DNA of 34,965 nucleotides from Bacillota bacterium (GCA_030705825.1 JAUZPR010000020.1:1-34965), one strand, 5' to 3'. Numbered from the stretch's first letter, positions 6,214 through 24,851 are shown. Program-made: numbers and translations. Notes: generated from the letters alone by a model not told the origin.

Positions 6214-6510
6214 AATAATAAAAGCAATGAAAAGAAGAGTAAGCATGTAACTTTCCTTACAGAGAACTCCGGCAGCTGCGAAGGAGCAGGAAATAGCAGG
6301 CTGAACATGGTCTTGGAGCATAATACCGAACAAGATTCTTTTGTTAGGCTGTTACGGGTGCACCCGTTATAGTGCCGGAGTATAACTGTTTTTTAAGCAG
6401 CGTACTTTTTGAGGCCGGTCTCGTAAGATATCGGTAAACTGGGGTGGTACCACGAAGTATATAACTCTCGTCCCCAAGACACAAGTCTTGGAGGTGAGAG
6501 TTTTTTATTT
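6214..6510 (+). promoter_or_regulatory. T-box leader, methionine specifier (ATG)
   Basis: This is the untranslated leader of the methionyl-tRNA synthetase gene. It shows CAGAGAACTCC early in stem I, an apical hairpin CTCC...GGAG, then GAAC-ATG-GTCTTGGAG, where ATG at 6307-6309 occupies the specifier position. The conserved T-box ACTGGGGTGGTACCACG (6438-6454) and a strong intrinsic terminator follow. By the known mechanism, uncharged tRNA-Met pairs with the specifier and the T-box bulge, favouring the antiterminator and allowing metS to be transcribed. Stem assignments were made by eye. The match between the specifier codon and the downstream gene supports them. Confidence 0.9.
6463..6510 (+). 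terminator. Regulated intrinsic terminator of the T-box leader
   Basis: AACTCTCGTCCCCAAGAC pairs with GTCTTGGAGGTGAGAGTT in an 18-bp stem with one mismatch and an ACAA loop, followed by TTTTATTT. The 5' arm lies immediately 3' of the T-box, as expected for a mutually exclusive antiterminator. Confidence 0.9.
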
Positions 6511-6685: not shown

Positions 6686-8302
6686 ATGAAAATTTTTATT
6701 GGAGGAGCATGGCCATATGCCAACGGTTCACTGCATCTTGGGCAGATTGCAGCCGTACTCCCTGGCGATATACTTGCCAGATATTTCAGACTGAAAGGTG
6801 CTGATGTGTTGTATGTTTCGGGTAGTGACTGCCATGGGACACCCATTTCCATAAGAGCCGTAAAGGAGAACACTACCCCGAAAAGCATAACAGACAGGTA
6901 TCACAATGAGTTTAAGCAATGTTTTGAAAAGCTTGGTTTTTCTTATGATTTATATTACAGAACCGACCATGATTTTCATAAATCCGAGGTTCAAGATGTA
7001 TTTCTTGAGCTTTATGAAAAAGGTTATATTTATAAAAAAGTTATTGAACAAACCTTTTGTACTCAGTGTAATCAATTTCTACCGGACAGATATGTTAACG
7101 GGATATGCCCAAACTGCGGCAACACAGCCAGGGGTGATCAGTGTGACTTCTGTTCCTCTCTGCTTGAACCGCTTGAATTAAAGGATCGAACATGTGGAAT
7201 TTGCGGAAATACTCCTGTTACAAAAGAAACGGAACATTTATTTTTTGCACTTTCAAAGCTCCAGGGTTTTATAGAAGACTTTGTCAAGTCTTCAGAAGGC
7301 TGGAGGCTTAATGCTATAAAACAATCAAACAGATACCTTGATGAAGGACTTGTTGACAGATCTGTTACAAGAGATCTTCCCTGGGGAATTGAGGTTCCTG
7401 TAAGAGGTTTCGAGGATAAAAAAATATATGTCTGGATTGACGCCATATTGGGATATTTGACTGCAAGCAAGCTTCATTGCAATTTCAAAAACTCCCGTTG
7501 GGAGGATTTCTGGGACGGTGATGTCAGGTCTTATTATGTACACGGAAAAGATAATATACCATTCCATTCCATAATACTTCCCGCAATCTTATATGCAATC
7601 GGATTGAAGCCTCCGGACAGGATTATTTCCAGCGAATACCTGACTATAGAAGGTAAAAAGCTTTCTACAAGCAACAACTGGGCTGTATGGGTCCCTGATG
7701 TAATCGAAAGGTATAATCCTGATTCATTAAGATATTTCCTCATTGCCAATGGTCCGGAAAAACGTGACACAGATTTTTCCTGGAGGGAATTTGTCAACAG
7801 TCATAACGGAGAACTACTTGGTGCCTTCGGTAACCTGGTAAACAGGACGGTTGTCTTTGCAAATAAATATTTCGGTCAAAAAGTACCTGAAGGAGAATAT
7901 AGTCTTCAGGTTAAGGAAGATATATACAATTTGTATGAAACAACAGGTAAAAAAATAGAAAACGGAGAATTTAAGGCAGCAATCGAAGAAATCTTTAGTT
8001 TTATAAGAGGGGCAAACAAATACTATGATGAGGAAAAACCCTGGATAACGCTTAAAACTGAACCTTATAAATGTCAAAGCACAATTTATACCTGCATTCA
8101 GATTATTGCCAACTTGTCCAACCTGCTTTCTCCTTTTATTCCTTTTTCATGTGCCAAGTTAAGGAAAATGCTCAATGTTTCCGCTGCTGCTTGGAAATCT
8201 ATTATTGTAAGTCCCAATACAGAATTGAATGAGTCAGAGCTATTATTTGAAAGGATTGATAAGTCGGTTGTGGAGGAAGAAATGGCAAAACTTGGGAGAT
8301 AA
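6686..8302 (+). CDS. metG: Methionyl-tRNA synthetase, E. coli/archaeal-like zinc type
   Basis: 538 residues; charges tRNA-Met with methionine in the cytosol. The class I signatures are HLGQ (17-20, in YANGSLHLGQ) and KLSTS (325-329, in IEGKKLSTS). Four CxxC pairs (125/128, 141/144, 153/156, 170/173) form the double zinc knuckle of the E. coli and archaeal type, unlike the single-knuckle enzyme usual in Bacillus. The anticodon-binding helical domain follows (DWREFVNSHNGELLG-like segment onward), and the C-terminal Trbp111-like domain found in many MetRS is absent, which fits the short length. The ribosome site AAGGAGGT lies 6 bases before ATG 6686. Expression should be controlled by the methionine T-box upstream. 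It may be a second MetRS in this genome. Confidence 0.95.
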   Translation: MKIFIGGAWPYANGSLHLGQIAAVLPGDILARYFRLKGADVLYVSGSDCHGTPISIRAVKENTTPKSITDRYHNEFKQCFEKLGFSYDLYYRTDHDFHKSEVQDVFLELYEKGYIYKKVIEQTFCTQCNQFLPDRYVNGICPNCGNTARGDQCDFCSSLLEPLELKDRTCGICGNTPVTKETEHLFFALSKLQGFIEDFVKSSEGWRLNAIKQSNRYLDEGLVDRSVTRDLPWGIEVPVRGFEDKKIYVWIDAILGYLTASKLHCNFKNSRWEDFWDGDVRSYYVHGKDNIPFHSIILPAILYAIGLKPPDRIISSEYLTIEGKKLSTSNNWAVWVPDVIERYNPDSLRYFLIANGPEKRDTDFSWREFVNSHNGELLGAFGNLVNRTVVFANKYFGQKVPEGEYSLQVKEDIYNLYETTGKKIENGEFKAAIEEIFSFIRGANKYYDEEKPWITLKTEPYKCQSTIYTCIQIIANLSNLLSPFIPFSCAKLRKMLNVSAAAWKSIIVSPNTELNESELLFERIDKSVVEEEMAKLGR

Positions 8303-8330: not shown

Positions 8331-8356
8331 AAAACCGGCTGGTATCAGCCGGTTTT
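8331..8356. terminator. Bidirectional intrinsic terminator between metG and the coiled-coil gene
   Basis: AAAACCGGCT and AGCCGGTTTT form a perfect 10-bp stem around GGTATC. The hairpin is followed by T-rich sequence on both strands and lies between two convergent stop codons, overlapping the last bases of the minus-strand gene. Confidence 0.85.
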
Positions 8357-8732
8357 ATTTCACTCGTTTAAGTATGATATCATGTTCATTCAGTTTTTTA
8401 TCTACTCCAATCACATAATCTCGTATAACTCCGATATCTGTTCTTAAATCTCCAATATCCGATTTCAGTTCCATCCTGGTGTCATCTATCTTTTTATCCA
8501 GCATTGTATAACCTTCTGCTGCTGCCTTAATATCACTTCTCAGGCTTTCAATCAGAACACCTGTATGATTCTTTACATCCTGTATCTCTGATTTTAAACC
8601 ATGCATTTCTGATTTCAAACCATGCATTTCTGATTTTAAACCGTGTATATCTGATTTTAAATCATTTCTAACATCTTCTACCTTTTTATCAAGCATATCC
8701 TTTATCAAAACAAACATTTCATCGTTATTCAT
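8355..8732 (-). CDS. Small coiled-coil protein with heptad repeats
   Basis: 125 residues, highly charged, no membrane segment. A stretch at about residues 20-50 repeats the heptad LKSEMHG with small changes, and the rest (MLDKKIDDTRMELKSDIGDL) continues a coiled-coil pattern to the end. I do not recognise a named family with confidence. Similar short coiled-coil proteins are common in Clostridia and have no assigned function. The ATG at 8732 has a GTGGGG site upstream. A 17-bp-spaced promoter lies about 100 bp before it, leaving a leader with an inverted repeat. The gene ends in a terminator shared with metG. The exact repeats at the DNA level suggest the copy number may vary between strains. 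Confidence 0.6.
   Translation of the reverse strand: MNNDEMFVLIKDMLDKKVEDVRNDLKSDIHGLKSEMHGLKSEMHGLKSEIQDVKNHTGVLIESLRSDIKAAAEGYTMLDKKIDDTRMELKSDIGDLRTDIGVIRDYVIGVDKKLNEHDIILKRVK
8587..8670. repeat. 21-bp tandem repeat, four units, inside the coiled-coil gene
   Basis: Units start at 8587, 8608, 8629 and 8650. The first two differ at one base (TCTGATTTTAAACCATGCAT and TCTGATTTCAAACCATGCAT); the later two diverge more. Each unit encodes one heptad, so unit gain or loss would keep the frame and only change coiled-coil length. Confidence 0.9.
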
Positions 8733-18947: not shown

Positions 18948-19280
18948 TTATTTCAGGAATTCCAGCGAATCTATCTCACCCTCCAGAAGTACATCCTCCG
19001 AAGTAATTGCTTTTATTACCAGTGCATTACCGATGATCTTAATGATGCCTATGCTTGTGTTCAGCTTTATTCTTCCGTTTTCATATTCAACAAGAGCTTT
19101 GTAGTTTTCAACAATTATATTCCGGTACCCTATCATTGTTATTTTAGGCACATCAAGCATAACTTCCTTGGGCAATTCCAAAATCTCAGCCATCTTTTCC
19201 CGGAAATTCTTTTTAAGTGCCTTCTCTTCATTATTTTTCTTTGGTTTGGGATTTTTTTTAGTATTCTTATTTTTAGGCAT
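18948..19280 (-). CDS. yqfC: Sporulation protein YqfC (YabP family)
   Basis: About 110 residues. A lysine- and asparagine-rich head (MPKNKNTKKNPKPKKNNEEK) precedes the YabP-like beta domain: ELPKEVMLDVPKITMIGYRN, NYKALVEYENGRIKLNTSIG, IIKIIGNALVIKAI. Members of this family are mother-cell sporulation proteins, and YqfC is always coupled to YqfD. ATG 19280 is chosen because GGGTGGTG lies upstream; a TTG seven codons earlier is not supported. The promoter region upstream is short and holds repeat sequences from about 90 bp before the start. Confidence 0.9.
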   Translation of the reverse strand: MPKNKNTKKNPKPKKNNEEKALKKNFREKMAEILELPKEVMLDVPKITMIGYRNIIVENYKALVEYENGRIKLNTSIGIIKIIGNALVIKAITSEDVLLEGEIDSLEFLK

Positions 19281-19372
19281 ATACACCACCCATAAAATCA
19301 ATTGACAATTGCCCTTATCTTATATCATATAAAACCGATGAATCTCACCTATAAACCTATTTTAACCCTACG

Positions 19373-19438
19373 CGGATGGCTGAGGGCAGCCATCCCTACA
19401 TTCACTTATACGGATGGCTGTGGGCAGCCACCCCTACA
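19373..19438 (-). repeat. Two tandem copies of a 28-nt hairpin repeat (TGTAGGG...TCCG)
   Basis: Read on the minus strand, each copy is TGTAGGG, a 9-nt arm, the loop CCCT or CCCA, the complementary arm, and TCCG. Copy A is 19373-19400 with arms GGATGGCTG/CAGCCATCC. Copy B is 19411-19438 with one mismatch. The period is 38 bp. A third copy with a different but still mostly paired stem lies at 24262-24289. Confidence 0.75.
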
Positions 19439-19445
19439 TCTACGC

Positions 19446-19518
19446 AACTGTTCACTGTCAATTGTACACTGTCAACTGTTTTTCACTGTCCATTATCAAT
19501 TATCCATTGTCAATTGAT
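19446..19518. repeat. Heptanucleotide tandem repeats, about ten units, entering the deacetylase gene
   Basis: Units of seven run without break except for an extra TTT: AACTGTT, CACTGTC, AATTGTA, CACTGTC, AACTGTT, (TTT), CACTGTC, CATTATC, AATTATC, CATTGTC, AATTGAT. The common form is (A/C)A(C/T)T(G/A)TC. The array occupies the gap between yqfC and the deacetylase and covers that gene's last codons and stop. Confidence 0.75.
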
Positions 19519-20449
19519 TTAAGTCTCCAATCTCGTAGCCTTTTTCTCTTATTCCTTTTATGATGCTGTCCAGTGCATCGGCGTTGTCCTTTGATACCGC
19601 ATGCAGCAGCAGGATAGCTCCGTTATGCAGGTTTCGCATAACTATATTGTAGGTATAATCAACTCCCCTGATCATATTTCTATGCCAGTCATCATAGGCA
19701 AAGCTCCAGAATGTATTGATATACCCAAGTTTTTGGGTAATTGCAAGAGTTCGTTCGCTGTATTCGCCTTTTGGGGGTCTGAGAAATTTCATATGCTGAC
19801 CGAATTTTTCATTGAATGCCCGGTCCAACCCTAGCACCTCTTCCTCCACAACATCGTCGGACACGCTGGGCAGGCTTGGATGATGAATTGTGTGATTACC
19901 GACAGTATGGCCTTCTTCTACCATTCTTCTCACAAGATCCTGATGTTCTTTAAGATAAGGCCCTGTAATGAAGAATACCGCTTTGGCATTATCATCACGC
20001 AATACATCGAGAATCTTTGTGGTATACCCATTTTCGTAACCTTCGTCAAAGGTCAGGTATACAATCTTTTTGGATGCATCGCCCAAATATATTCCCGAAT
20101 ATTTCTTTAAAAGCTCCGGTGCTCCCGGATCTGCCTGAGGAGTTGCATTATCGGGTTTTCTGGCAATTCCCCAGCATAAAAGCTTGTTGCTGTACTGCCC
20201 ATCACTAATAGCTCCGGTAACATCAGAAGGCACAGCATTCACAGCTTTATCTGCAGGGTCTTCAGACAGCCTTCCGCTTACTTCAGTACTGAAATCAATA
20301 TCTTTGGAATTAACTTCATAAACTCCTCCGAGATCGCTTAGATTGGAATCAATTACCTTCCTTTTACTGCCGCATCCATTTAATGTAACCGATATCATTG
20401 CTATTGCAAGAAGAAAACAAAAAGATCCTAGTTTTTTCATAATGAACAT
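19496..20449 (-). CDS. PdaA-like polysaccharide deacetylase lipoprotein (spore cortex type)
   Basis: 317 residues. The N-terminal signal ends in LNGC, with Cys26 for lipidation. The NodB deacetylase domain starts near residue 128: YLTFDEGYENGYT (Asp135-Glu136), GNHTIHH with His186 and His190 for the metal, LRPPKGEYSERTL, and WSFAYDDWHR. The TFDEGYENGYT block is typical of PdaA, the enzyme that removes the acetyl group of N-acetylmuramic acid on the way to muramic delta-lactam in spore cortex, as opposed to TFDDG chitin- or GlcNAc-type enzymes. The spacer between residues 27 and 125 is longer than usual. GGGGG precedes ATG 20449 closely. The last residues (NQLTMDN and the stop) come from a heptamer repeat, so the native end may have been replaced. 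Confidence 0.87.
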   Translation of the reverse strand: MFIMKKLGSFCFLLAIAMISVTLNGCGSKRKVIDSNLSDLGGVYEVNSKDIDFSTEVSGRLSEDPADKAVNAVPSDVTGAISDGQYSNKLLCWGIARKPDNATPQADPGAPELLKKYSGIYLGDASKKIVYLTFDEGYENGYTTKILDVLRDDNAKAVFFITGPYLKEHQDLVRRMVEEGHTVGNHTIHHPSLPSVSDDVVEEEVLGLDRAFNEKFGQHMKFLRPPKGEYSERTLAITQKLGYINTFWSFAYDDWHRNMIRGVDYTYNIVMRNLHNGAILLLHAVSKDNADALDSIIKGIREKGYEIGDLNQLTMDN

Positions 20450-20629
20450 TTACCCCCATAAAACAAAAAATCCCAAATTAATGTAATATTCATTAGTACA
20501 TTAATCCAGGATTCTTATACAATTATATTTTTCCAATTATCAAAAAAGAACCTATATAAGTTGAACTAAGATTCTAATACTCATTATATCCCTAAGGCCG
20601 GACATAATAGAATGTTCAATGAACTTAGT

Positions 20630-21340
20630 TTATTTCTGTTCAACAGGGGTCAGCAAATCTGTCCTGATAACAGTTCCATCATCTCTGACTCTTGGAATGA
20701 CAATATTATCCGATTTCTTTACAGTAACCTTCAATTGATACTGCTCCAACTCCTCAACCTGACCGCCTATCATTTCCAATGCACGGTCCAATTTATCCGG
20801 GTCAGCTATGGCTTTTATTGTAAAAGGAGCAACCATTTGCTTTCCGTTTACCATTATATATCCTCTTACTATCCCGGCCGATCTGATCTCGCTCATGGCG
20901 GTTATACGCTCATCGTTTACCGATATGGCCTGTGCATCGGATGCCTTAAGTTCATTGACAAGCTTTAATATATCCGTATCAAGTATGGTAGAATTTTCAT
21001 TGTTTTCAAGTGTTACAACAACACCCTTGCCCTTAACGTCAATGAGTCCTGCTATCATTTGATCTCTCTGCAGCTCATTTTTCAAGTTTTCAATCATCTT
21101 GTTATCGTCGCCCTTGGAACTCTCATATTTGGACTTAAGCTGTTCAAGCTCTGAATTCCTCTGACGAAGATCATCATTGGTTTTCTTCTCAGCCAGTAGC
21201 TGCTGCATAAGGTCATCTGATCTCTTGTTTTCCGAGCTTGCTATTGTCTGGTTATGGTTAATGCTGGCTAACTGCCATGTAATTACCAATCCAAGTATTA
21301 TACAAACAAAAGTCAGAGCAATGTTTTTATTTATTTTCAT
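20630..21340 (-). CDS. DUF881 membrane-anchored protein (YlxW/YlxX-like), second copy
   Basis: 236 residues: one N-terminal membrane segment (about 8-25), a coiled coil (about 35-90, with LAEKKTNDDLRQRNSELEQL), then the DUF881 globular domain with VKGKGVVVTLENNE, NELKASDAQAISVNDERITA and PFTIKAIADPDKLDRAL. The family is found near cell-division genes in Firmicutes; its role is unknown. Its ATG overlaps the stop of the upstream DUF881 gene, so the pair is co-translated. The C-terminal EYQLKVTVKKSDNIVIP matches the same region of the partner, so the two are paralogues. Confidence 0.85.
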   Translation of the reverse strand: MKINKNIALTFVCIILGLVITWQLASINHNQTIASSENKRSDDLMQQLLAEKKTNDDLRQRNSELEQLKSKYESSKGDDNKMIENLKNELQRDQMIAGLIDVKGKGVVVTLENNENSTILDTDILKLVNELKASDAQAISVNDERITAMSEIRSAGIVRGYIMVNGKQMVAPFTIKAIADPDKLDRALEMIGGQVEELEQYQLKVTVKKSDNIVIPRVRDDGTVIRTDLLTPVEQK

Positions 21341-22062
21341 TTTCCCGCTACCTCCATAGAAGTTACCAAATCATCAAGATTTCCAATAAATTTAGGAATC
21401 ATAATATTCTGGGATTTAACCATGTCCATTTTTATGCCAAAATCGCGAAAATCCTGGGCAATAGAGCTTTTGTCCAGGGTATCATATAACAATTGAGGAT
21501 TACCGATAGCGGTAATTTCATAAGGCACCGGGTATCTTCTTTTGTTTATTCTGATAGTAGGTCCTGCACATATTTGTTCACTGGTGGAAACAATTCTCTC
21601 ACCGTTAATGGAGATTGCCTGGGCACCCCCGGCTTTAAGCTCATTAAGCACCTGGAGAATCTCCCCGTCATGAATAATAAGCTGGGTAACATCCGAATCG
21701 GGAGTTTCCTGCCCGTCATCCAATTTGATTATAAGTCCGGGTCCTTTTACATCAGTCAGACCCATCTTGAGCTTAACGGCGTCCAGCTCTGATTTTAACT
21801 TTTTTATCTGGGAATTGCTCATATTATCGACGCTATCCTTCAGATATTGGTCATTAAGCTTTTGTGCTTCACTTATCTGCTTTTTAAGAGACTCCCCTGT
21901 TTTCTTTTCATCTTCAAGCTGCGTCTCAAGCTTGTCTATGTTGATTGCAGTAAGAGTTTTCTGCTTATTGGCCGTAAGTATGCCTCTAAACTGTAATGAT
22001 ACCAGTATCCCAAGGAATAGAAATATTATAAAAAAGATAAATCTTTTTTCACCTTTTGGCAT
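21337..22062 (-). CDS. DUF881 membrane-anchored protein (YlxW/YlxX-like), first copy
   Basis: 241 residues with the same plan as the following gene: membrane segment at 8-26, coiled coil with LETQLEDEKKTGESLKKQIS, and a DUF881 domain with LTDVKGPGLIIKLDDG, NELKAGGAQAISINGERIVS and PYEITAIGNPQLLYDTL. AGAGGT precedes ATG 22062. In Bacillus subtilis two such genes (ylxW, ylxX) stand together next to sbp in the division region. Here the pair lies without division genes, between two deacetylase-family genes, so an envelope role is a reasonable but unproven guess. Confidence 0.85.
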   Translation of the reverse strand: MPKGEKRFIFFIIFLFLGILVSLQFRGILTANKQKTLTAINIDKLETQLEDEKKTGESLKKQISEAQKLNDQYLKDSVDNMSNSQIKKLKSELDAVKLKMGLTDVKGPGLIIKLDDGQETPDSDVTQLIIHDGEILQVLNELKAGGAQAISINGERIVSTSEQICAGPTIRINKRRYPVPYEITAIGNPQLLYDTLDKSSIAQDFRDFGIKMDMVKSQNIMIPKFIGNLDDLVTSMEVAGK

Positions 22063-22120
22063 AATAACCTCTTAATAATATCTTTTGTGCTAAAAATGGT
22101 CTTTTCCATTTCATAAAATT

Positions 22121-22149
22121 ATTCTACTTTTTATGAAGGATTATTTCAA
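22121..22149 (-). promoter_or_regulatory. Promoter of the DUF881 gene pair
   Basis: On the minus strand TTGAAA (22144-22149) and TAGAAT (22121-22126) are 17 bp apart. The 5' leader would be about 50 nt. Confidence 0.5.
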
Positions 22150-22304
22150 GCATATCTGGAAATCTTCCATCTCAATAAATTTATCGGAATGTTTATATAT
22201 GACTTTACAAACTATAAATTCATGCATTTATTTTTAAGTAAAGTATATATTTGGCAATTGCGGTAGTATATTATCTTAGACGATGTTTTACGAATGTGAT
22301 TGAA

Positions 22305-23168
22305 ATGAAAATAGTTATTTATTTTTCGAGTGCCGTTAAAAAGCTAATATATTTTGCAGTTGCAGTTATAATATCCTCCCTGATTCTTTTTATAAATATG
22401 GACTATTTCCATGAAAACAATACAATTCCGGGCAATTCTTCCGTAAATTCTGTTCCTGGGGATGCCAAACCTTCGGTAGCAGGAACTACCAGGGCAAAAC
22501 TTGCAATAATAATAGATGATTTCGGTCAGAACAGAAATGGAGTGGCTGAAATGTTATCCATAAAAAGGAACCTTACTATGGCGGTAATGCCTTTTCTCAC
22601 CTATACCAGGACAGATGCCCAGACGGCCCACAAGAACAAGCACGAAGTAATTGTACACCTTCCAATGGAATCCTATAAGGGGGAACCTGCCTGGGTTGGT
22701 CCCAGACCCATTATAACAACCATGAAGGATTTTGAAATCAAAAAACTTGTGACCGATGCATTCAATGACGTTCCATTTGCAGCCGGTGCTAATATTCATA
22801 TGGGTACCAAAGCCGGCGGTGACCAGAGAGTGATATCAGATGTACTTGATGTAATCAAAGGCAGGAATCTGTACTTTGTGGATAGCAGAACCGGAAATAC
22901 ACCGGTGGCAAGGAATATTGCAAAAAAGAAAAAAATTATCTGTTATGAAAATGATGTATTTATTGACGGTAAAGATCAATCATTAGATTATATGAAGAAT
23001 CAATTAAAAGCAGCTTGCGAAATCGCTCAGAAAACAGGAAAAGCCGTTGCTATCGGTCATGTAGGCGCAGAAGGCGGTAAGATTACAGCCCAGGCGATAA
23101 ATGAAATGCTGAGTTATTTCGATAGTAAAAATATCCAGCTGGTATTTGTATCGGAACTTGGAAAATAA
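22305..23168 (+). CDS. Divergent polysaccharide deacetylase (YibQ/DUF610 family)
   Basis: About 287 residues. A membrane anchor at 11-30 is followed by a linker and a NodB-like domain of the divergent deacetylase family (PF04748): LAIIIDDFGQN (Asp71-Asp72), MAVMPFLTYT, HEVIVHLPMES, GANIHMGTKAGGDQRV, LYFVDSRTG and GKAVAIGHVGAEG. The family is built like polysaccharide deacetylases and its substrate is not established; the anchor places the domain outside the cell. ATG 22305 (GTGAT upstream) is preferred over a TTG 18 codons earlier. It is divergent from the DUF881 genes and 37 bp ahead of an unrecognised gene. Confidence 0.85.
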   Translation: MKIVIYFSSAVKKLIYFAVAVIISSLILFINMDYFHENNTIPGNSSVNSVPGDAKPSVAGTTRAKLAIIIDDFGQNRNGVAEMLSIKRNLTMAVMPFLTYTRTDAQTAHKNKHEVIVHLPMESYKGEPAWVGPRPIITTMKDFEIKKLVTDAFNDVPFAAGANIHMGTKAGGDQRVISDVLDVIKGRNLYFVDSRTGNTPVARNIAKKKKIICYENDVFIDGKDQSLDYMKNQLKAACEIAQKTGKAVAIGHVGAEGGKITAQAINEMLSYFDSKNIQLVFVSELGK

Positions 23169-23205
23169 ACTTTTATTTTGGGCAAAATAATACAGGGTGA
23201 TAATA

Positions 23206-23823
23206 TTGAAAAACTTAACTTTTGGAGACATGCTGGAATTCAGAGAAAATACTATGACACTGGATTACATTGCAGAAAAATCCAAAGCTTCAAGCGGAGG
23301 ACAGCGGGATCTGAATTTTCTTAAATACCTTGTAGACAATAATATTCTAAAATTAACCGAAGCAGTAATGAAACGGAGCGACGTCAATTTAACCGACGAG
23401 TGCCTGCTTGAACACTATAAAAAGATGAAATACGAATCTGAAAGGCATTTTCTCTGCCGGACAGCAATTCAGGAGGAACTGAAGAAAATCGGCATAGCTT
23501 CATTTGAAGGGATGGGGCTTGGTAATATGGATATATTGCGGGCAAACTCTACCTATGATATAACAATTGAGGATTTCTCGGCGGCAATAGATATAGGACT
23601 TGCCCCGGCCCGTAACTATTTCAGGGGACTAACCGACTTAAGGTTAAGACATTACTATATCACTCCGTTTTTTGATGAATATATGGACGAAGTGATATTC
23701 AATGTTTTTACAAGAGTCGATGACAATACTTTTATAGGTGCTGTCAAGGATTATGTAACTAATTCCTATGAGGCACCAATAACCGGCACAAACACCGAGG
23801 AGTTTAATGATCTAACCAGATAG
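23206..23823 (+). CDS. Unrecognised protein, possible PD-(D/E)XK-like
   Basis: About 205 residues from TTG 23206, which has AGGGTGAT just upstream; GTG 23197 is inside that ribosome site. No signal or membrane segment; acidic and soluble. I do not recognise a family. The middle and end show an order seen in some small endonuclease-like proteins: SERHFLCRTAIQEELKKIGI (helix with Glu), then YDITIEDFSAAIDIG (strand-turn-strand), then LAPARNYFRGLTDLR and HYYITPFFDEYMDEV. AIDIG would replace the usual ExK strand, so catalysis is doubtful. This resemblance is by eye only. Codon use looks like its neighbours. It sits between the divergent deacetylase and another unrecognised gene, with a heptamer repeat array separating the two. 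Confidence 0.55.
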   Translation: MKNLTFGDMLEFRENTMTLDYIAEKSKASSGGQRDLNFLKYLVDNNILKLTEAVMKRSDVNLTDECLLEHYKKMKYESERHFLCRTAIQEELKKIGIASFEGMGLGNMDILRANSTYDITIEDFSAAIDIGLAPARNYFRGLTDLRLRHYYITPFFDEYMDEVIFNVFTRVDDNTFIGAVKDYVTNSYEAPITGTNTEEFNDLTR

Positions 23824-23836
23824 GTAGTATATTTAT

Positions 23837-23871
23837 CATTATCCATTCTCAATTGCCAATTCTCAATTAAA
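23837..23871. repeat. Heptanucleotide tandem repeats, five units
   Basis: CATTATC, CATTCTC, AATTGCC, AATTCTC, AATTAAA stand in exact 7-base register between the two unrecognised genes, ending just before the ribosome site of the second. Same unit type as at 19446-19518. Confidence 0.6.
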
Positions 23872-23884
23872 TAGAGGTGATAGT

Positions 23885-24217
23885 ATGTTCAACCAGACAA
23901 GATATCAAACCGGAGAAACAGACGATATTATTAAGGAAATGAACAACAGGAAAATCCCCTGTGTTGATGTTGATGACAATGATGAATTGAATTGGTTTAT
24001 CGGGAAACTTGCTGAAAATGGTATTTTCAAAGTAGAAGACATTCCCCATGATAAATATGCAAGGGACAGGGTAAAGGAGCCTGAGTTTGAATTCAGGATA
24101 GCTTTCTCAAATAATATTGGAAATATAGATGAGTCTGAAAACAAAAGCCTGATGTATATAGATTTTTACTTTCAGCCCTTTGATGACAGGACGTACGACA
24201 CAATAGGAGAGATGTAA
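23885..24217 (+). CDS. Unrecognised small acidic protein
   Basis: 110 residues, rich in Asp and Glu, no membrane segment. The middle reads PCVDVDDNDELNWFIGKLAE and the end MYIDFYFQPFDDRTYDTIGEM, with several aromatic residues in beta-like strands. I do not recognise the family. AGAGGTGATAGT before ATG 23885 is a strong ribosome site, and codon use is normal for the window, so the gene looks real. It follows another unrecognised gene by 61 bp on the same strand and could be co-transcribed with it. Short repeats lie on both sides. Confidence 0.6.
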   Translation: MFNQTRYQTGETDDIIKEMNNRKIPCVDVDDNDELNWFIGKLAENGIFKVEDIPHDKYARDRVKEPEFEFRIAFSNNIGNIDESENKSLMYIDFYFQPFDDRTYDTIGEM

Positions 24218-24222
24218 GTCAG

Positions 24223-24257
24223 GGTTCGGAGTTGGGAGTTGGAAGTTGGGAGTTCGT
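24223..24257. repeat. Heptanucleotide tandem repeats, G-rich strand, five units
   Basis: GGTTCGG, AGTTGGG, AGTTGGA, AGTTGGG, AGTTCGT in 7-base register. On the other strand the units read CCCAACT/TCCAACT, which fits the (A/C)A(C/T)T core of the arrays at 19446 and 23837. Confidence 0.65.
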
Positions 24258-24261
24258 GGTT

Positions 24262-24289
24262 TGTAGGGAACGGTGCCCTCACCTTTCCG
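24262..24289 (+). repeat. 28-nt hairpin repeat, third copy with changed stem
   Basis: TGTAGGG at 24262, arms GGAACGGTG and CACCTTTCC (one mismatch), loop CCCT, ending TCCG at 24289. Length, loop and ends equal the copies at 19373-19438 while the inner stem bases differ in a largely compensating way. Confidence 0.75.
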
Positions 24290-24301
24290 GTTTTAGGATC
24301 C

Positions 24302-24325
24302 CCCCTCTCTTTGGAAAGAGAGGGG
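24302..24325. repeat. Palindrome CCCCTCTCTTT/AAAGAGAGGGG
   Basis: An 11-bp perfect stem with GG loop, followed by CTGGGGGTGAGTT. I recall this string as a dispersed intergenic repeat in many bacterial genomes. No T-tract on either side, so it is not counted as a terminator. Confidence 0.6.
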
Positions 24326-24347
24326 CTGGGGGTGAGTTCCACAAACG

Positions 24348-24851
24348 TTAAAATAATCTTAACAAAAGAAAGCATATTCCTGAAGTAAAAATAGCACAAA
24401 TAAATGCAAGTACCGTACCTTTGCCTAAATCTCCTTTCAAATGAAACTTGAAGTCCTTATAAGCAGGATTATTCTCAGTACCAGGTATAATAAGAAATTT
24501 TGGGGTTAAAGTACAAAAAATTAACCAATCCATAATTAGTAAATCAAAAATATTCCATGTCATAAAAATTATTAAATAGTGCAAAAACAAAACAAAGTAG
24601 CTTACATCAAGAGCAATATATGAATGAATAACAGTTGCCATCAAAAAAATGAATAATATTAGTAACATTGGTACTGCCAAGAGCTTAAACCTTTTTTGTT
24701 CCTCTTTTGTTTTGGGTTTAACAGATTTTCTTATTTCTTGTGGGTAGTTGTGCAACTCATATCTTGGATTTAATATTTCTATTAAAGAAACCATTCCACC
24801 AAACATAACTGAAAAGATAAGTCCGTCTATTAACGCTCTGCTTAGTAACAT
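24348..24851 (-). CDS. Membrane protein of unknown function
   Basis: 167 residues with about four hydrophobic segments (near 8-26, 60-80, 84-108, 142-165) and a basic loop (EIRKSVKPKTKEEQKRFK) after the first. I do not recognise a family. AAAGGGG precedes ATG 24851. It is the last gene of the unit that starts with the isoprenylcysteine-methyltransferase-like gene and follows the CDF exporter by 27 bp, so co-expression with metal export is likely. No enzyme motif seen. Confidence 0.65.
   Translation of the reverse strand: MLLSRALIDGLIFSVMFGGMVSLIEILNPRYELHNYPQEIRKSVKPKTKEEQKRFKLLAVPMLLILFIFLMATVIHSYIALDVSYFVLFLHYLIIFMTWNIFDLLIMDWLIFCTLTPKFLIIPGTENNPAYKDFKFHLKGDLGKGTVLAFICAIFTSGICFLLLRLF

Follow-up and report, generated by a model that had tools for sequence, protein, structure and literature searches.

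Repetitive extragenic palindromes (REPs) are short bacterial repeats whose spread is attributed to a companion transposase, encoded elsewhere in the same genome. REPs of the GTAG type consist of a GTAG foot 5' of a GC-rich palindrome of 20–40 bp, they occur in tens of copies with several families per genome, and they are found mainly where adjacent genes are co-directional or convergent, close to 3' ends (PMC3733652, PMC2817692). In related systems (PMC8266576, PMC6006769), the REP-associated tyrosine transposase (RAYT, also called TnpAREP) binds a single folded DNA strand, recognizes bases of the GTAG and of the loop, and both cleaves and joins single-stranded DNA; what counts is the sequence of the GTAG and the loop, with the stem acting mostly through its fold (PMC8266576). 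GTAG REPs, RAYTs, REP–RAYT coevolution and in-frame REPs in RAYT subclass 2.4 are already published (PMC3733652, PMC2817692, PMC6006769). Here, we consider a 34,965-nt stretch of DNA from a Bacillota bacterium (GCA_030705825.1 JAUZPR010000020.1:1-34965; “the window”). It comes from a genome of 3.65 Mb in 242 contigs, of which it is C113. The window contains three small hairpins that are very probably GTAG-type REPs spread by a RAYT, with the GGGCGGCTG stem class belonging to an enzyme encoded on contig C235.

The likeness to described GTAG REPs (Di Nocera et al. 2013; Nunvar et al. 2010) extends to the foot, the palindrome, the copy range, the placement and the presence of several families in one genome. 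All three window copies have an unpaired GTAG immediately 5' of the hairpin, and the palindrome of 26–28 nt (9-bp stem, 4-nt loop) is within the 20–40 bp range. As expected for this type of repeat, there are many dispersed, mainly extragenic copies (39 exact, with 36/38 intergenic). A RAYT that is flanked by or carries a REP accompanies the GGGCGGCTG class in this genome; for the second class, GGAACGGTG, such a RAYT was seen only in a relative, G161. The differences are the particular stem and loop classes, a genome whose relatives are Clostridia, a modest copy number, and copies that are mostly single or direct.

The initial annotation of the window had described three 28-nt elements with stems that differ yet mostly stay paired. 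The elements are present exactly as described (Table 1), and the pairing was borne out (9/9, 9/9 and 8/9 pairs), although the GGAT... stem occurs only in the first. All three take up the expected hairpin when folded as single-stranded DNA, with folding energies of -10.5, -8.4 and -6.0 kcal/mol for the copies starting at 19373, 19411 and 24262, and z-scores of -4.8, -3.3 and -2.8, respectively. Relative to the genomic consensus of its class, the 19373 copy has two altered pairs, changed on both arms each time. The 19411 copy, with its intermediate stem, lies 10 bp away in identical orientation, and the 24262 copy is a decayed version of a perfectly paired consensus, GGAACGGTG CCCT CACCGTTCC.

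In this family, an unpaired (T)GTAG leads into a stem of 9 bp that is closed by a YCYN loop and followed by a G. Searching the genome with the pattern GTAG-GG-N6-G-NCCN-C-N6-CC gave 39 exact matches, and the reversed pattern, used as a control, gave 0. Allowing one mismatch added 11 matches, at least nine of them plainly of the same family (reversed control at up to one mismatch, 6), and a slightly altered pattern gave 43 versus 0. Few copies or unpaired stems, the outcomes that the initial annotation had named as refuting its reading, were not what this search found: 32/39 stems are fully paired and 38/39 have at least 8/9 pairs. Two stem classes of roughly equal size share the one geometry. 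The consensus of the first is GGGCGGCTG(CCCA/CCCT)CAGCCGCCC, and that of the second, the GGAACGGTG/GGAACGG class, is GGAACGG[TC]G(CCCT)C[AG][CT]CGTTCC; the window holds two copies of the first and one of the second. GTAG hairpins of other geometries are also present, for example an 8-bp stem with a CCATGT loop; the strand analysis below covered 79 GTAG hairpins of this genome.

The stems covary, and the initial annotation had taken compensating changes as a sign that structure is conserved. The covariation is genuine: copies have 8.65 pairs on average versus 6.90 after 3' arms are swapped between distinct copies, with 0/10,000 shuffles reaching the observed value. When relatives are added, 98.9% of cells are paired, and covariation is 0.609 versus 0.181 when shuffled and at most 0.166 when slid. 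However, this signal mostly separates two stem lineages of separate descent. Swapping arms within the GGAACGG class leaves a smaller pairing excess (2/10,000), and within the GGGCGGCTG class there is no significant excess (1656/10,000), so selection for the fold is not demonstrated for dispersed copies. The window pair itself fits a stepwise path through wobble pairs, from GGGCGGCTG/CAGCCGCCC to GGGTGGCTG/CAGCCGCCC (on C56 and C231), GGGTGGCTG/CAGCCATCC (the 19411 copy) and GGATGGCTG/CAGCCATCC (the 19373 copy). Every step is present in the genome, and the order given here is the one we infer. Across the family, the GTAG, the two G-C pairs at the stem foot, the closing G-C pair and the loop are conserved, while the middle of the stem varies with pairing kept.

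Four Y1_Tnp genes were found in the genome by Pfam, on C61, C10, C193 and C235. The C235 gene is intact and, judged from its sequence, encodes the cognate RAYT of the GGGCGGCTG class. A perfect REP with a CCCT loop ends about ten bases 5' of its start codon, beside the likely ribosome-binding site, and a second perfect REP, with a CCCA loop, lies antisense within the frame just past HUH, where it encodes GRLWAAAPT. These two loops are the loops of the window pair. The protein has the motifs NHIH, LWQ and YIINNP, in agreement with the NH[IFV]H, WQ and YIxNNP of subclass 2.4 (Bertels group 4; Quentin et al. 2018, PMC6006769). It also shares with that subclass an in-frame REP between HUH and the tyrosine, in a variable, unstructured loop. 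A single-protein search of PDB sequences returned noise only, whereas a profile search placed the Escherichia coli TnpAREP (PDB 4ER8) at the top (E 8e-12). An AlphaFold2 model (pLDDT, the predicted local distance difference test, 85) has the HUH-Y1 fold, and 4ER8 is the best match to the query by TM-score (0.64). The REP-coded residues lie in an unstructured loop between the HUH strand and the next helix in this model, with pLDDT below 50 at residues 92–98. The E. coli system thus resembles ours in fold and in having GTAG followed by a hairpin, but its REP stem is bulged; the perfect stems and conserved loop seen here are nearer to the group 3 systems of PMC8266576.

A second RAYT, broken, is present on C2 and C133. 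It carries a CCGTGT-loop REP internally, and its 3' end holds a CCATGT-loop REP whose GTAG provides the stop codon of the frame. This second RAYT is split or duplicated over two contig ends (L143, L144) at the internal REP and has an in-frame TAA; it is either a broken gene or a break caused by strain mixture. The relative G161 has 12 dispersed copies of the GGAACGGTG class and a RAYT with a near-identical hairpin, GGAGCGACG(CCCT)CGTCGCTCC, inside its frame.

The association between enzyme and repeat extends across genomes. Among 148 relatives, 24 have a RAYT resembling that of C235 and 15 are REP-rich, defined as having at least three REPs of this geometry; 12 are both. A RAYT is therefore present in 12/15 REP-rich genomes versus 12/133 of the remainder (Fisher p 7e-9). 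On a RAYT tree built with REP-coded residues masked, hairpin geometry changes 24 times, versus 38.7 with shuffled labels (0/500). This tree and the counts below draw on RAYT loci that are interrelated and were collected by similarity searches, one with a seed that included a REP-coded stretch, so the counts are not independent. Among 80 intact RAYT frames, 46 have an antisense GTAG hairpin past HUH, mostly 29–58 nt away, and 35 have a sense GTAG hairpin ahead of HUH. Both are found in 24 genes. In 18 of these, the first element is 114–147 nt ahead of HUH; in the others it is further upstream, in some cases probably beyond the true start codon. Within one gene, the stems of the pair are 93% alike, versus 64% when shuffled among genes (0/10,000), and their geometry is the same in 24/24. 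REP hairpins are about 15 times as dense in RAYT frames as in other frames at the same loci. Translation runs through the in-gene element in either of two frames (24 versus 20 genes), so what is conserved is the DNA rather than a peptide. The matched pair, with its sense member ahead of HUH and its antisense member past it, recurs at fixed spacings in many of the subclass 2.4 genes (L033–L142). One locus, L049 (G026:C33), has RAYT segments in tandem, spaced by about 350 bp, each with an inverted REP pair, GGGCAGAC(CTATGT/CTGCGT).

How would the REPs be spread? A RAYT, an HUH/tyrosine transposase, would recognize a single DNA strand in its hairpin fold by means of the 5' GTAG and the loop, such that the middle of the stem need only pair. 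It would then cut and join single-stranded DNA, copying or moving the REP to new, mostly intergenic sites. The pattern of conservation described above, with a free stem middle between fixed ends, fits recognition by TnpAREP, and the literature on related systems would extend recognition, cleavage and mobility to these REPs; their dispersal likewise suggests copying or movement. The GGAACGGTG class was probably spread by a related RAYT that has since been lost, or by the C235 enzyme serving both classes. A miniature element mobilized through its fold had been among the proposals of the initial annotation, together with a check of genomic context and transposases. The proposal has gained support from the dispersed copies, the cognate RAYT on C235 and a geometry that follows the RAYT phylogeny; the check placed 36/38 copies between genes.

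That placement contrasts with the 83% of sequence that is coding by the same simple gene caller, and one of the two non-intergenic copies is in the RAYT gene itself. Taking all geometries together, 45 of 67 copies are in co-directional gaps, 20 are in convergent gaps and 2 are in divergent gaps, even though the sequence in divergent gaps amounts to more than double that in convergent ones. This agrees with the published distribution of GTAG REPs (PMC3733652). The GTAG strand is the sense strand in 39/45 co-directional gaps (p 5e-7), a bias that rests on one fragmented genome and the simple gene caller. Convergent gaps show no clear agreement between the GTAG strand and the nearer gene (12/20). 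Lagging-strand targeting was considered as the source of the bias and rejected. Co-directional copies agree with it (26/30 with replication direction assigned by gene majority, 35/42 by GC skew), but here replication is inseparable from gene direction; convergent and divergent copies taken together do not follow replication (5/15 by gene majority, 6/19 by GC skew), so replication direction does not explain the sense bias.

The same bias, together with the avoidance of divergent gaps, could also be expected if the hairpins were transcribed RNA elements that act in 3' untranslated regions, by end protection, attenuation or termination, and are kept by selection rather than mobility. Indeed, all copies would fold as RNA too. 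We consider this improbable. Rfam has no match above the gathering score, no T-run follows the stems, and none of the three copies is among the terminator-like sites, which also removes the intrinsic terminator (a GC stem with a T-run) as a candidate. In addition, the dispersed GGGCGGCTG-class copies lack excess pairing on arm swap, and RNA function alone leaves the GTAG tag and the tie to a RAYT unexplained. Hence, the functional RNA suggested in the initial annotation is not supported, with the sense-strand bias leaving room for a role at the transcript level. It is less likely still that the hairpins are passive miniature elements derived from insertion sequences (IS) of the IS200/IS605 group and moved by another Y1 transposase. 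IS200/IS605 transposases such as those of IS608 and ISDra2 do share the HUH-Y1 fold and the recognition of single-stranded hairpins, and the genome has three further Y1_Tnp genes, on C61, C10 and C193. However, there are no GTAG hairpins near those three genes, and REPs accompany only two RAYTs here, that of C235 and the broken one on C2/C133, each having a hairpin class of its own. As further differences from the IS200/IS605 group, neither IS ends nor tnpB was seen next to the RAYT, and the lagging-strand targeting reported for IS200/IS605 is not followed by the convergent and divergent REPs. As for chance or low-complexity palindromes of intergenic DNA, simple intergenic repeats are abundant in the window near both REP sites, but the genome-wide count already refutes this explanation, and we give it almost no weight. 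The window has three GTAGG plus 9+4 hairpins with at least 8 pairs, versus a mean of 0.11 and a maximum of 2 in 200 first-order Markov random windows. In addition, across 0.8 Mb of the genome, no tetranucleotide is more over-represented ahead of stem-loops than GTAG (24.9 per 1000 occurrences; next 4.9, with shifted registers of the same element set aside); as these stretches were picked around REPs, only the ranking of tags carries information, not the density. The hairpins are confirmed as real, beyond chance.

Several observations weigh against spread of the REPs by a RAYT, with the C235 enzyme serving the GGGCGGCTG class. With no close strain for comparison, neither an empty site nor a polymorphic insertion was found, and movement of the REPs is not directly demonstrated. 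In the relative G010, the RAYT-type hairpin is confined to RAYT genes and the dispersed copies are of the other class; hence, a RAYT is not always accompanied by dispersed copies of its own hairpin. The C235 protein (RAYT1) scores 65.1 bits (E 6e-18) against the NCBIfam model of REP-associated tyrosine transposases, NF047646, under the curated cut-off of 80 bits, and that model gives a higher score, 85.2, to a REP-less 266-aa Y1 protein of the same genome. Lastly, no RAYT of the GGAACGGTG class was found in the fragmented assembly, where a query with the G161 protein returned only the two known RAYTs.

What are the implications of the matched in-gene REPs? In many relatives, unlike in subclass 2.4 as described, a second REP lies in sense orientation ahead of HUH, and its stem matches that of the first. 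The main text of PMC6006769 describes the in-gene REP at the HUH-Tyr site only, and its supplement may show a second. Neither this matched second REP nor the sense-strand bias was found described in the published main texts, and both may be new. A tentative idea, which we regard as possible though rather unlikely, is that subclass 2.4 RAYTs store their own substrate as two matched in-gene REPs, and that transcription provides the working substrate by exposing the non-template strand. The REPs, sense before HUH and antisense after it, would then be fixed components of the coding sequence, each keeping its match to the other while stems turn over between lineages, and enzyme and substrate would be inherited as one unit. 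The sense bias of dispersed copies would reflect use of this transcription-exposed strand instead of the lagging-strand template. Bacterial repeats of this class are already well described, and our finding contributes one more genome; it also offers a natural data set in which a hairpin-reading transposase and its target change together. If confirmed, matched in-gene REP pairs and a transcription-linked strand bias bear on how REPs spread.

Table 1. REPs and neighboring genes in the window, and the RAYT gene of contig C235.
Feature	Coordinates	Strand	Description	Basis
REP, GGGCGGCTG class	19373..19400	minus	TGTAG + GGATGGCTG(CCCT)CAGCCATCC + G; 9/9 pairs	sequence, fold, genome family
REP, GGGCGGCTG class	19411..19438	minus	TGTAG + GGGTGGCTG(CCCA)CAGCCATCC + G; 9/9 pairs including one G-T	
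REP, GGAACGGTG class	24262..24289	plus	TGTAG + GGAACGGTG(CCCT)CACCTTTCC + G; 8/9 pairs, one C-T mismatch	
Polysaccharide deacetylase gene	19496..20449	minus		Pfam PF01522, E 4e-37
YabP-family protein gene	18948..19301	minus		Pfam PF07873, E 3e-17
Open reading frame (ORF)	23885..24217	plus	stop ~45 bp ahead of 24262 REP	ORF list; no Pfam match
ORF	24348..24851	minus	far side of 24262 REP	ORF list; no Pfam match
RAYT gene	contig C235 (L032 1441-1920)		159 aa; intact	Pfam Y1_Tnp, E 1e-7

Within the window, the REP pair is 57 bp 3' of the stop codon of the polysaccharide deacetylase gene and on the same strand, with the YabP-family gene as the next co-directional gene, and the 24262 REP sits in the convergent gap between the two ORFs. 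A second short repeat, CCCCTCTCTTTGGAAAGAGAGGGGCTGGGGGTGAG, adjoins the 24262 REP at 24299–24340 (plus strand); its core at 24319–24336 has 21 copies in the genome at up to two mismatches, versus 0 for the control. Simple intergenic repeats adjoin the window REPs at 19441–19515 and 24220–24255 (CAATTGTCAACTG-like and AGTTGGGAGTTGG-like), and comparable ones are found beside many other REP copies. PADLOC gave no match for anti-phage defence. Elsewhere in the window, a T-box leader (6218–6478, plus strand; Rfam RF00230, 109.8 bits) precedes a 538-aa ORF at 6686–8302, and there are 21-bp tandem repeats at 8571–8676, within an ORF at 8355–8732 on the minus strand.

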